Below are positions 3,312-5,273 of a stretch of 64,000 bases of DNA, one piece after another. A program made the translations under genes and the position numbers. The notes under the pieces were generated by a model that had not been told where the DNA came from, made no database searches, and saw only the letters and a list, made by a program, of their open reading frames with translations. The DNA is taken from the NCBI RefSeq assembly GCF_002909255.1, contig NZ_PIOB01000006.1, positions 186,001-250,000 on the forward strand, given 5' to 3'. The DNA comes from Arenibacter hampyeongensis. Lineage in GTDB: Bacteria > Bacteroidota > Bacteroidia > Flavobacteriales > Flavobacteriaceae. Every line of letters starts with the position of its first letter. The first letter of the stretch is position 1.

Positions 3312-3431
3312 CCTAAAACGGGATTTGATGCCATAATTTTATTTCAATAAATTGAAGGCACGCAGGAACATTTGCATAAAGAAGGGATAGGGGTTTAATT
3401 GAAACTCTGTGCCAATAAACGGGCAATTGTA

Positions 3432-4151
3432 TTATACCGCCTCCTTTTCACTTAAAATCGCCAACTGGGGTTGTCTGGAATATCGTGTATGTGAGTGTAT
3501 TTTACTATTTATCAGTTGTTTTATGTTGGTCTGGGAAATATCTCCGGTACAATCATAGGCTGAAAATTCCAAGGATATAACTTCTACGGTGTATAGGTTG
3601 TAATAAATGGCATATTTTCTTTTCTGATCGTAAACCATAAATTCCTGGCCATGGAATTTGGACCTGAAGTATTTGGAAATAAGCGGTAGTACGTCGAATC
3701 CCGGTGAAACACTGGAAAAGTAGACCTGATCTTGCGATATTTTAAAATTTGCAATGGCTTCAATTCTATGTTTTTCCCTTGCCACCATTCTTGAATGTTG
3801 CTGAATTTTTAATATAATTTCAGCCATATCCTCTATGGGGTCATCATTGGAATTGGCATACATGGAACGTATATATTGGTACAAAAGCAGTTCAATACCC
3901 TTGGATTCACTTAAAAAAGCGAAATAAATGGACTTAATAGCTGCATTGCTTTTTTTCTGTATACTGTTCCAAACTCGTCTGGCCTTATCCATTTGGGTGA
4001 AAACGGTTATCGCCTCGGAAAACAGTCCTTTTTGATTCTCCGTATTCCTCTGAATGTTGGTTACTTCAATTTTTTCTTCAAAAATTTTGAAGACCGTAGT
4101 TAGAAACCCATTAAAGCTGCCATCGTAAATTAAAATTTTAGGATTTTCCAT
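3432..4151 (-). CDS. TIGR03915 family putative DNA metabolism/repair protein
   Basis: A 239-residue protein starting MENPKILIYDGSFNGFLTTVF, which matches the TIGR03915 family (DUF4130-type) N-terminus; the KARRVWNSIQKK and MVAREKHRIEAIANFK stretches also fit. The family is normally encoded as a pair with a radical-SAM protein (TIGR03916) and is thought to act on DNA or in repair; the biochemical activity is unknown to me. No radical-SAM partner of that type is in this window. Instead the gene follows a 59-codon gene with only 2 bp between them, so the two are almost certainly co-transcribed from the promoter that diverges from the S24 repressor gene. Confidence 0.8.
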   Translation of the reverse strand: MENPKILIYDGSFNGFLTTVFKIFEEKIEVTNIQRNTENQKGLFSEAITVFTQMDKARRVWNSIQKKSNAAIKSIYFAFLSESKGIELLLYQYIRSMYANSNDDPIEDMAEIILKIQQHSRMVAREKHRIEAIANFKISQDQVYFSSVSPGFDVLPLISKYFRSKFHGQEFMVYDQKRKYAIYYNLYTVEVISLEFSAYDCTGDISQTNIKQLINSKIHSHTRYSRQPQLAILSEKEAV

Positions 4152-4153
4152 AA

Positions 4154-4333
4154 TTAATCGAATAAACTTAGTTGAACACTTAATTCCTTTGATAAACGCC
4201 TTCTTTCCTTTTTTATGGAATGACTTCTGATAGGACTATGCACCCTATTTAGGAGATTACTGGAATAGTGATTATCCTCCATCCCTGAATGGGCTAGTCT
4301 GTTTAATTTTTGATGTATATCTTCCAAAGTCAT
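4154..4333 (-). CDS. 59-residue protein ending in a sliding-clamp-binding motif
   Basis: A complete 60-codon frame (ATG at 4333, TAA at 4154-4156) ending 2 bp before the TIGR03915 start. It begins MTLEDIHQKLNRLA, has a basic middle (KKERRR at residues 41-46) and ends QLSLFD. QL[SD]LF is the established beta-clamp (DnaN) binding pentapeptide found in Pol IV/V, ImuB, MutS and Hda. The TATATTTG -7 box on the minus strand at 4356-4363 lies 22 bp before the ATG, which supports this start. It may be an adaptor that brings the neighbouring protein to the clamp. Alternatively it is an internal-deletion relic of the radical-SAM partner TIGR03916, which from memory has a similar N-terminus and often a QLxLF end. 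It is short, so the coding call rests on position, start, spacing and motif. Confidence 0.72.
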   Translation of the reverse strand: MTLEDIHQKLNRLAHSGMEDNHYSSNLLNRVHSPIRSHSIKKERRRLSKELSVQLSLFD

Positions 4334-4352: not shown

Positions 4353-4419
4353 TTCCAAATATATGGATTATTTCCTAATTATGGAATTAATCCAATAAAT
4401 TTTTTGGATATATTCCAAA
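4353..4419. promoter_or_regulatory. divergent promoter region with three GGA-N5-TCC inverted repeats
   Basis: Three half-site pairs with identical 5-bp spacing sit between the divergent genes: GGATTATTTCC (4365-4375), GGAATTAATCC (4383-4393; arms extend to TGGA/TCCA) and GGATATATTCC (4406-4416). The last lies inside the perfect repeat TTTGGATATATTCCAAA (4403-4419, 6-bp arms). The first follows directly on the minus-strand -7 box TATATTTG (4356-4363). The last covers the -33 TTG of the plus-strand promoter. They are the natural operators for the adjacent S24 repressor, giving autoregulation and joint control of the minus-strand pair. Binding is inferred, not shown. Confidence 0.75.
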
Positions 4420-4432
4420 TTACGTATATTTG
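4404..4432 (+). promoter_or_regulatory. promoter of the S24 repressor gene
   Basis: TTG at 4404-4406, an 18-bp spacer and TATATTTG at 4425-4432 match the Bacteroidota sigma-A pattern TTG-N19-TAnnTTTG. The ATG lies 73 bp downstream of the -7 box. The -33 element is inside the perfect inverted repeat 4403-4419. Confidence 0.75.
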
Positions 4433-4505: not shown

Positions 4506-5273
4506 ATGAACGAGGATATGGAAATTGTAACAAAGCGTTTTACGGATTTACGTAGGGAGTTGGGATATACCCAATCCGATTTTGCCAACCTTCTTGGCAT
4601 CTCAAATACCACTGCGGATATTGAAAGGGGGCGTACAAAATTGTCTGGAAAAGTTGTGGCGGAACTGCTAAAACAATTTAAGATCAATCCACTTTGGTTA
4701 TTTGGAGAAAGTAGTCAAAAGTATTTGTCGGTTACAAATATCAGTGTCATACCAAAGGTAGTGACCGTAAATTCGTCCGATAACGAGAATATGGTATTGG
4801 TTAACGCAAAAGCAGCTGCCGGTTATCCACAGAATATTCAGGATACCAGTTGGTACAGACAGCTTCCGGCATTTGATATTCCTTTGCCAGAGTTTAGAAA
4901 TGCAACTTATCGCGGTTTTCAGATAGAAGGTGACAGTATGTTGCCCAATTTAAAGCCAGGGGAGTGGGTATTGGCCAAGGCGGTAGAGGGATTACAGGAA
5001 ATTAGTCCCAATAAGATTTATGTAGTGGTCCTACAAGATGCAGTTTTGGTTAAAAAAATTGAAAAATCTCCAAACCCAGCTGTGATTTCATTAATTTCTA
5101 TTAATGAAAATTATCCTCCTTATTCCGTTAATACAGAGGATATTCAGGAGCTTTGGCAAGTGAGCAGTAAAATAACCTTCGGAGTGGATGCCACTTCCGA
5201 AAAAGGGTTGCTAAGGCAACTTCAAGAATCTATGGAAGAGTTGAAGAATCAATTAAAAAAAGTCAATGATTAA
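4506..5273 (+). CDS. XRE-type HTH / S24 (LexA-like) autocleaving repressor
   Basis: A 255-residue repressor. Residues 8-65 form a Cro/CI-type helix-turn-helix (TQSDFANLLGIS...). Residues 98-225 form an S24 peptidase domain with the Ala105-Gly106 cleavage site (KAAAGY), the catalytic Ser144 in EGDSM and Lys183 in VLVKKI. A C-terminal coiled coil (about 232-252) is extra. These features are those of repressors that self-cleave when RecA filaments form on damaged DNA. It is divergent from the clamp-motif gene and TIGR03915, with inverted repeats between, so it probably represses both itself and them. It could equally be a domesticated prophage repressor, but no phage genes are nearby. Confidence 0.88.
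   Translation: MNEDMEIVTKRFTDLRRELGYTQSDFANLLGISNTTADIERGRTKLSGKVVAELLKQFKINPLWLFGESSQKYLSVTNISVIPKVVTVNSSDNENMVLVNAKAAAGYPQNIQDTSWYRQLPAFDIPLPEFRNATYRGFQIEGDSMLPNLKPGEWVLAKAVEGLQEISPNKIYVVVLQDAVLVKKIEKSPNPAVISLISINENYPPYSVNTEDIQELWQVSSKITFGVDATSEKGLLRQLQESMEELKNQLKKVND

Follow-up and report, generated by a model that had tools for sequence, protein, structure and literature searches.

The window analysed here is a 64,000-nucleotide stretch of the Arenibacter hampyeongensis genome (contig NZ_PIOB01000006.1), and positions given without a locus label refer to it. Two units diverge from a 172-bp intergenic stretch. On the plus strand, positions 4506–5273 encode a 255-residue protein, the probable non-canonical LexA, that matches the profiles of HTH_3 at 31.9 bits and of Peptidase_S24 at 46.3 bits (cut-offs 23 and 23.3); it is the only match to PF00717 in the genome. 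On the minus strand, a leftward operon (4333–3432) begins with a 59-residue ORF (4154–4333, hereafter referred to as the microprotein) that the original prediction passes over, and which possesses an N-terminal helix motif and a C-terminal QLSLFD. It is followed, 2 nt after the stop codon, by a gene (3432–4151) for a 239-residue DUF4130/TIGR03915 protein (152.2 bits against TIGR03915, cut-off 112.25). A gene that reads by eye as uvrA-like lies nearby on the minus strand (1–2673), and a uvrA-like ORF directly follows the DUF4130 gene in three related loci (L206, L300 and L301).

Three GGA-N5-TCC sites lie between the S24 gene and the leftward operon, at the coordinates and with the identical 5-bp spacing given in the original prediction: operator 1 (GGATTATTTCC, 4365–4375), operator 2 (GGAATTAATCC, 4383–4393), 18 bp from the first, and operator 3 (GGATATATTCC, 4406–4416), 23 bp from the second. 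Operator 3 sits inside TTTGGA-N5-TCCAAA (4403–4419), which had been described as a perfect 17-bp inverted repeat; the 6-bp arms are indeed palindromic, but the repeat as a whole is not perfect, with mismatches in two of its eight pairs (T7/T11 and A8/A10). The same operator overlaps a plus-strand TTG (4404–4406), which corresponds, on the Bacteroidetes promoter consensus, to the −33 element of the repressor promoter, and the −7 box of this promoter (TATATTTG, 4425–4432, plus strand) starts 19 nt after the operator GGA. The leftward operon has its own −7 box at 4356–4363, where TATATTTG on the minus strand reads CAAATATA on the plus strand, and operator 1 starts 9 nt past the start of this box. 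The rarity of the motif is no argument, since GGA-N5-TCC is at chance level across the 64-kb window (12 observed, 15.3 expected). Three sites within the 172-bp stretch were found in none of 20,000 first-order Markov copies, and two sites in seven of 20,000.

I compared this region with the 80 best of 536 relatives found (Arenibacter, Maribacter, Eudoraea and kin), a set that leans to close kin because only the best were kept; the closest among these 80 is Arenibacter arenosicollis, with 98% identity over the repressor. Conservation of the half-sites, the first check proposed for the operators, is borne out: at least one GGA-N5-TCC site stands upstream of the S24 gene in all 80 loci, with three sites in 63, four in 13, two in 2, five in 1 and one in 1. 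A spacer of 5 bp occurs 251 times upstream of this gene, and any other length from 0 to 12 at most six times each; neighbouring sites are 18 bp apart 78 times, 23 bp apart 62 times and 22 bp apart 20 times. The register with the promoters is also kept. In 74 of the 80 relatives, a TAnnTTTG-like −7 box starts 19 nt past the final GGA, and the leftward −7 box lies 9 nt ahead of the first site in all 78 relatives that have the 18/19-bp pair, so the placing of operator 3 over the repressor promoter and of operator 1 directly after the opposite −7 box both hold. As a control, random 280-nt stretches were drawn from these loci; of at most 4,000, eight held two or more sites, the true denominator being below 4,000 because draws near the promoter were skipped.

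A wider search identified S24 homologues in 87 of 120 family genomes. Counting that of the window, there are 47 family orthologues of at least 45% identity; a site lies within 330 bp upstream in 45 of them, and two or more sites do so in 42. The remaining two orthologues, L026 and L063, show no motif within 330 bp upstream; in L026 the promoter may lie beyond this distance, since the divergent radical-SAM ORF starts 411 bp away. None of three distant homologues (30–31% identity) has a site within 330 bp upstream. As read by eye from translations, the gene divergent from the repressor in relatives is dinB-like in L035, L056, L059 and L062, uvrA-like in L060 and SRAP-like in L061.

The Ala-Gly cleavage site and Ser/Lys pair, described as intact in the original prediction, are invariant as A105-G106, S144 and K183 in all 21 aligned orthologues. 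No LexA winged-helix domain is among the DNA-binding matches of the repressor at E values up to 1, which comprise HTH_3, HTH_19, HTH_31, Pou and Xre-like domains. It had been suggested that Flavobacteria often lack canonical LexA, and one paper reports none in Bacteroidetes (PMC8565304). Published in 2021, it describes Bacteroidetes S24 repressors with CI-like N-termini that bind GGA-N5-TCC, as determined by EMSA and mutagenesis, with binding abolished by substitutions in either dyad or by altered spacer length; it also reports mitomycin induction in S. agarivorans, for which the protein tested is WP_075324850.1. The GGA-N5-TCC group is placed there mainly in Flavobacteriaceae, and the genes listed under this motif are DinB, SplB, a COG1573-COG4277 repair pair, UmuDC and SRAP. 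Because the same system is described in that paper, the proposal of these operators and this repressor is correct yet already known; among the papers listed from an open-licence library, no second one on the GGA-N5-TCC motif was found.

The second proposed check was a search of the genome for further sites near repair genes. Allowing one mismatch, the TTTGGA-N5-TCCAAA context was too loose, its 101 matches comparing with 33 when the pattern was reversed, and GGAWWAWWTCC was barely above control (forward 93 versus 63, reverse 88 versus 78). The full consensus gave 21 forward and 14 reverse matches, against 2 and 4 in the control; the tandem pattern was matched 16 times and its reversed control four times. 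I inspected the surroundings of 15 tandem loci (L097–L111, in which the repressor locus appears twice) and 17 consensus loci; the final match of each pattern (tandem, C26:85645; consensus, C27:191723) was left aside. Tandem sites with AT spacers were found in promoter position before four units, namely the repressor with its operon, dinB (PF00817), a SRAP gene (PF02586) and a PA0069-type radical-SAM gene (NF033668), whose promoter is met again as consensus locus L264. Outside ORFs there are only these four promoters and L103, all other inspected loci being inside ORFs; the L103 pair, between ORFs, has G or C in its spacers and was left out of the regulon count. The regulon may be larger, since single sites of weaker consensus were left out as well. 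For the PA0069-type gene, the site is ∼213 nt from the first ATG of the ORF, and the true start is probably nearer, since the family profile match begins at position 58. Its protein (L097:420–1292, minus strand) ends in QMKLF, a clamp-like tail, and the DinB of the same genome (L106) has QINLF. An 85-residue ORF (L102:1238–1495, minus strand) diverges from the SRAP gene under the same tandem operators, and gave no Pfam or NCBIfam match at E values up to 0.01.

That the S24 protein is instead a prophage-type repressor with a purely local role, the other motif matches being due to chance, would suit its CI-like HTH and the location of most consensus matches beyond the four promoters inside genes, but is scarcely credible given the constant chromosomal setting (DUF4130 in the leftward operon in 79 of the 80 relatives' loci), the excess of tandem pairs (16 versus 4 reversed, three of those outside genes flanking known SOS-type genes) and the SOS role published for relatives. 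The motif, the regulon and the conserved residues, together with the relative's protein studied in that paper, support the S24 repressor as a candidate damage-response regulator, as originally proposed. Very probably, then, the three sites are the SOS operators of a non-canonical LexA controlling both promoters.

On this reading, S24 dimers would occupy the three operators and mask both the −33 region of the repressor promoter and the leftward promoter core, which should keep the two promoters silent in undamaged cells. Once damage occurs, RecA-stimulated self-cleavage at the Ala105–Gly106 bond would free them. For the present strain, I infer cleavage and repression.

I then considered the leftward operon, across 397 family genomes. 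TIGR03915 is found in 138 of these (129 over cut-off), and TIGR03916, the radical-SAM family rSAM_link_UDG (hereafter rSAM), in 101; in relatives, an rSAM gene often takes the position that the microprotein has here. TIGR03915 occurs without TIGR03916 in 37 of the 397 genomes, one of which (G132) has it as a fragment only. In 19 of the remaining 36, an ORF of 53 to 75 residues precedes the DUF4130 gene (hereafter the family set), and its stop codon lies −4 to +6 nt from the DUF4130 ATG in 19/19. All 36 genomes have an S24 gene nearby and GGA-N5-TCC upstream of DUF4130. A profile search for the microprotein in the 397 genomes gave 23 matches, consisting of the 19 known by synteny, two beside an intact rSAM (G160 and G340), and two weak ones with stop codons; the 19 are not independently recovered, since the profile drew in part on those very species. 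All 21 stop-free matches are at the DUF4130 locus. The 80 relatives' loci comprise 41 with the microprotein and DUF4130, 24 with rSAM and DUF4130, 14 with DUF4130 alone and one other, after correction by hand of L237 (from microprotein to DUF-only) and L231 (from DUF-only to rSAM), the script having given 42, 23, 14 and 1. The microprotein is thus present in 43 of the 80, 41 without rSAM and two (L206 and L210) with both.

The microprotein ORF is, judging from its substitution pattern, a real gene under purifying selection. Of seven pairs, the closest has a dN/dS ratio of 0.12 and five more have ratios from 0.21 to 0.38; in the seventh, dS is saturated. Six of the seven pairs align without gaps. 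Among the nine closest Arenibacter-type sequences of equal length (59 residues; 36 non-independent pairs), the ratio is 0.21 for the N-terminus, 0.55 for the linker and 0.07 for the C-terminus; three Arenibacter loci with microproteins of 61–62 residues (L188–L190) and one without such an ORF (L191) were excluded from this calculation. In the family set, the net charge is positive in 19/19, the linker is variable and no member has a cysteine; a few of the 80-relative set have one (L187 and L188). This set counts L143 (QPSLF) and L146 (QFTLF) as microproteins, although the strict QLxLF pattern missed them, and the L177 sequence was read from its second Met. Neither Pfam nor NCBIfam gave a match to the window microprotein at E values up to 1, and the best match among 35 members has an E value of 0.05. 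No report of such a microprotein was found among the titles and abstract starts listed from an open-licence library, and it is apparently undescribed.

The tail of the window microprotein, QLSLF, fits the clamp-binding consensus; PMC12309361 gives this as QL[S/D]LF or QxxLF, with QLSLF as the PolC clamp motif. As a motif, a QxxLF ending is short and weak. It occurs near the end of 41 distinct relatives' ORFs (by selection, L237 included), and in 2 of 994 other short ORFs. The Q, second L and F are invariant in all 35 aligned sequences, for which the relatives were chosen by their QxxLF end; this alignment (A4) holds the window sequence and 34 of the 41 ORFs, excluding L184, L195, L199, L221, L226, L230 and L245. 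QxxLF is also found near the end of 22 of the 24 rSAM ORFs in the relatives' loci. A class-level search of TIGR03916 C-termini (L282–L293, two of the same family) showed a QxxLF-type end in 10/12.

The N-terminus of the microprotein likewise resembles that of rSAM. In the window, the helix motif is I6..K9-L10..L13-A14..G17..D20, and the first 20 residues fit the rSAM pattern MSFERIKEKLNILADAAKYD ungapped, the offset from the start codon being the same in 17/19 of the family set. There, position 6 is I or L in 19 sequences, and A14 is found in 19, L10 in 18, G17 and D20 in 16 each and K9 in 13; position 17 is G in the microprotein, versus A in rSAM. For 15 non-redundant members (the near-copies L142, L158, L177 and L179 being dropped), the summed score against the rSAM N-terminus is 278, versus −43 ± 24 for shuffles, none of 2,000 of which scored as high. 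This match is a result for the group: individual scores run from −1 (L178) through 4 (L157) to 33, with a median of 19, and the best of 183 unrelated ORF N-termini scores 7. With an HMM of the rSAM N-terminus, only 5 of the 19 microproteins were among the 60 best rows, mixed with shuffles. The predicted rSAM model has a pLDDT of 45.6, and no reading is drawn from it.

With only the two ends of rSAM, in the place of rSAM and mostly in loci without it, the microprotein has the appearance of a functionless, decaying stump of a deleted rSAM gene, and L237 is a genuine fossil of rSAM: there, just before position 3353 (minus strand), the promoter region runs into what appear to be the last rSAM codons, ahead of an almost intact DUF4130 gene. 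From this fossil, rSAM seems to have been deleted here at least once. For the microprotein, such a stump is nonetheless very improbable, against the purifying selection and largely gap-free pairs, the constant length of 59 residues in the nine closest Arenibacter-type sequences, and its coexistence with an intact rSAM in L206, L210, L300 and L301. In these four loci the order is operators, microprotein, intact rSAM and then DUF4130; since it lies beside an intact enzyme in Zeaxanthinibacter, the microprotein is not merely a deletion stump. An origin by simple deletion is also weakened by the microproteins found beside an intact rSAM (G160, G340, L206 and L210). The L206 helix scores 45 against Eudoraea-type microproteins and 15 against its own rSAM. 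Because microprotein and intact rSAM coexist, and because this helix is nearer to other microproteins, the microprotein looks like an older separate gene, derived by partial duplication or by convergence on the same partners, that persisted past the loss of rSAM.

In a tree of DUF4130, the three arrangements cluster and eight changes are needed in all, with 22 of 59 inner branches open. One genome, G256, carries two DUF4130 genes, one paired with an intact rSAM and a diverged one beside the repressor, and these two copies also point to paralogy.

According to PMC3765255, DUF4130 itself is predicted to be a mutagenesis-related enzyme, with links to SplB-like radical-SAM proteins and to uracil DNA glycosylases; no further paper naming DUF4130 was found in the open-licence library searched. 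Its C-terminal tail follows the arrangement of the locus. In the loci of the family genomes, read by eye, PKRYWKYL is present in all 25 proteins with rSAM, in none of 19 with the microprotein and in none of 18 with neither (2/45 loci gave no DUF row). In the 80-relative set, in which 67 of 79 proteins were read, it is present in 20 of 21 with rSAM (the exception being PRRYWKYL), 0/34 with the microprotein and 1/12 with neither; here L237 (SKRYWKYL) was counted under microprotein, and the sole PKRYWKYL with neither is L231, really an rSAM locus. L254 and L255 have near-intact tails without rSAM. As the tail is kept with rSAM and lost or altered otherwise, it behaves as if it docks on the rSAM enzyme. 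Scraps of the canonical tail are seen in two genomes without rSAM (L144, ∼2514, and L161, ∼2350); G373, of the same genus, also has the diverged DUF4130 copy together with a microprotein. The C-terminal -AV (3432–3443 in the window) is, by eye, kept in many lineages, also where the preceding tail is decayed.

The structural model of the window DUF4130 protein has a pLDDT of 85.4. Foldseek gave a best E value of 1.4e-3, with TM scores of 0.36–0.40 for the two best rows. The best VIA-align match is 8a8k (Z 9.6 over 194 residues, rmsd 4.6). I take 8a8k to be a DHH protein, and five replisome/CMG chains to be Cdc45; on this basis the top 26 rows are all DHH proteins, matched over residues 1 to ∼216, 19 of them at a Z of 9.6 to 8.0. 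Models without a clear match typically reach a best Z of 7 to 8, so the DHH (RecJ/Cdc45)-like fold suggested by the predicted model is likely yet unproven. A sequence search of solved structures gave no match of DUF4130 to a DHH structure, and there is no invariant D-H-H among 34 sequences; D10 and N14-G15 presumably correspond to a degenerate DHH motif I, which they resemble by eye.

Taken together, these features suggest how the two genes of the operon might work. The N-terminal helix of the microprotein, which it has in common with TIGR03916, would dock on the complex at the DUF4130 side. The QLSLF tail would hold the sliding clamp, so that DUF4130 could be brought to stalled forks without the rSAM enzyme. 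On this sequence evidence I am almost evenly divided as to whether the microprotein is an SOS-induced clamp adaptor for DUF4130, and put this forward tentatively. DUF4130 would not need an adaptor everywhere, since 14 of the 80 loci have neither microprotein nor rSAM.

Alternatively, the microprotein may be a clamp blocker, filling the DnaN cleft during the SOS response and slowing or reassigning polymerases, as a checkpoint independent of DUF4130. A small protein with a net positive charge throughout the family set, a variable linker, and a tail that is both its most constrained part (dN/dS 0.07) and a fit to the clamp consensus is what such a blocker would look like, but its N-terminal helix is also constrained, and is common to rSAM; in addition, the copies found are at the DUF4130 locus (21/21 stop-free profile matches), and translation with DUF4130 looks coupled (19/19). 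I therefore consider a clamp blocker unlikely, if well short of negligible. 

The adaptor reading, in its full form, is that the free-standing ends of rSAM have outlived the enzyme in many Flavobacteriaceae and tie a Cdc45/RecJ-like DUF4130 to the clamp at damaged forks, which is possible, if somewhat doubtful.

With these operators and this repressor, a known SOS system extends to Arenibacter-type genomes, and since the geometry is nearly invariant among close kin, this promoter provides a clean test bed. Should the microprotein bind both the clamp and DUF4130, the docking ends of an enzyme would have survived without its catalytic core. DUF4130, itself poorly understood, would then be placed at the replication fork and given a probable fold, that of DHH proteins.

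The repressor shares with the GGA-N5-TCC group of non-canonical LexA proteins, as described in the available part of PMC8565304, the motif and its fixed spacing, the CI-like HTH with S24 domain, autoregulation, a regulon of dinB, SRAP and a repair radical-SAM gene, and the Flavobacteriaceae host, with no difference in kind seen. The geometry of three operators locked to both promoters is set out here; that paper, in the same part, states that two or more sites are common. The DUF4130 protein probably resembles the DHH superfamily (RecJ, Cdc45, PAP phosphatase) in its predicted fold, but of the metal motif only D10 and N14-G15 look equivalent by eye. Compared to DinB and ImuB, SOS-linked clamp binders, the microprotein likewise has a QxxLF-type motif under LexA control, but at 53 to 75 residues in the family set it has no polymerase domain. 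The closest comparison is with the operon of TIGR03916 (rSAM_link_UDG) and TIGR03915, in which the microprotein takes the same place next to the same DUF4130 neighbour. It keeps the N-terminal 20-residue pattern in register and the C-terminal clamp motif, but lacks the ∼350 residues that include the radical-SAM core, leaving a protein of 59 residues and no cysteine.
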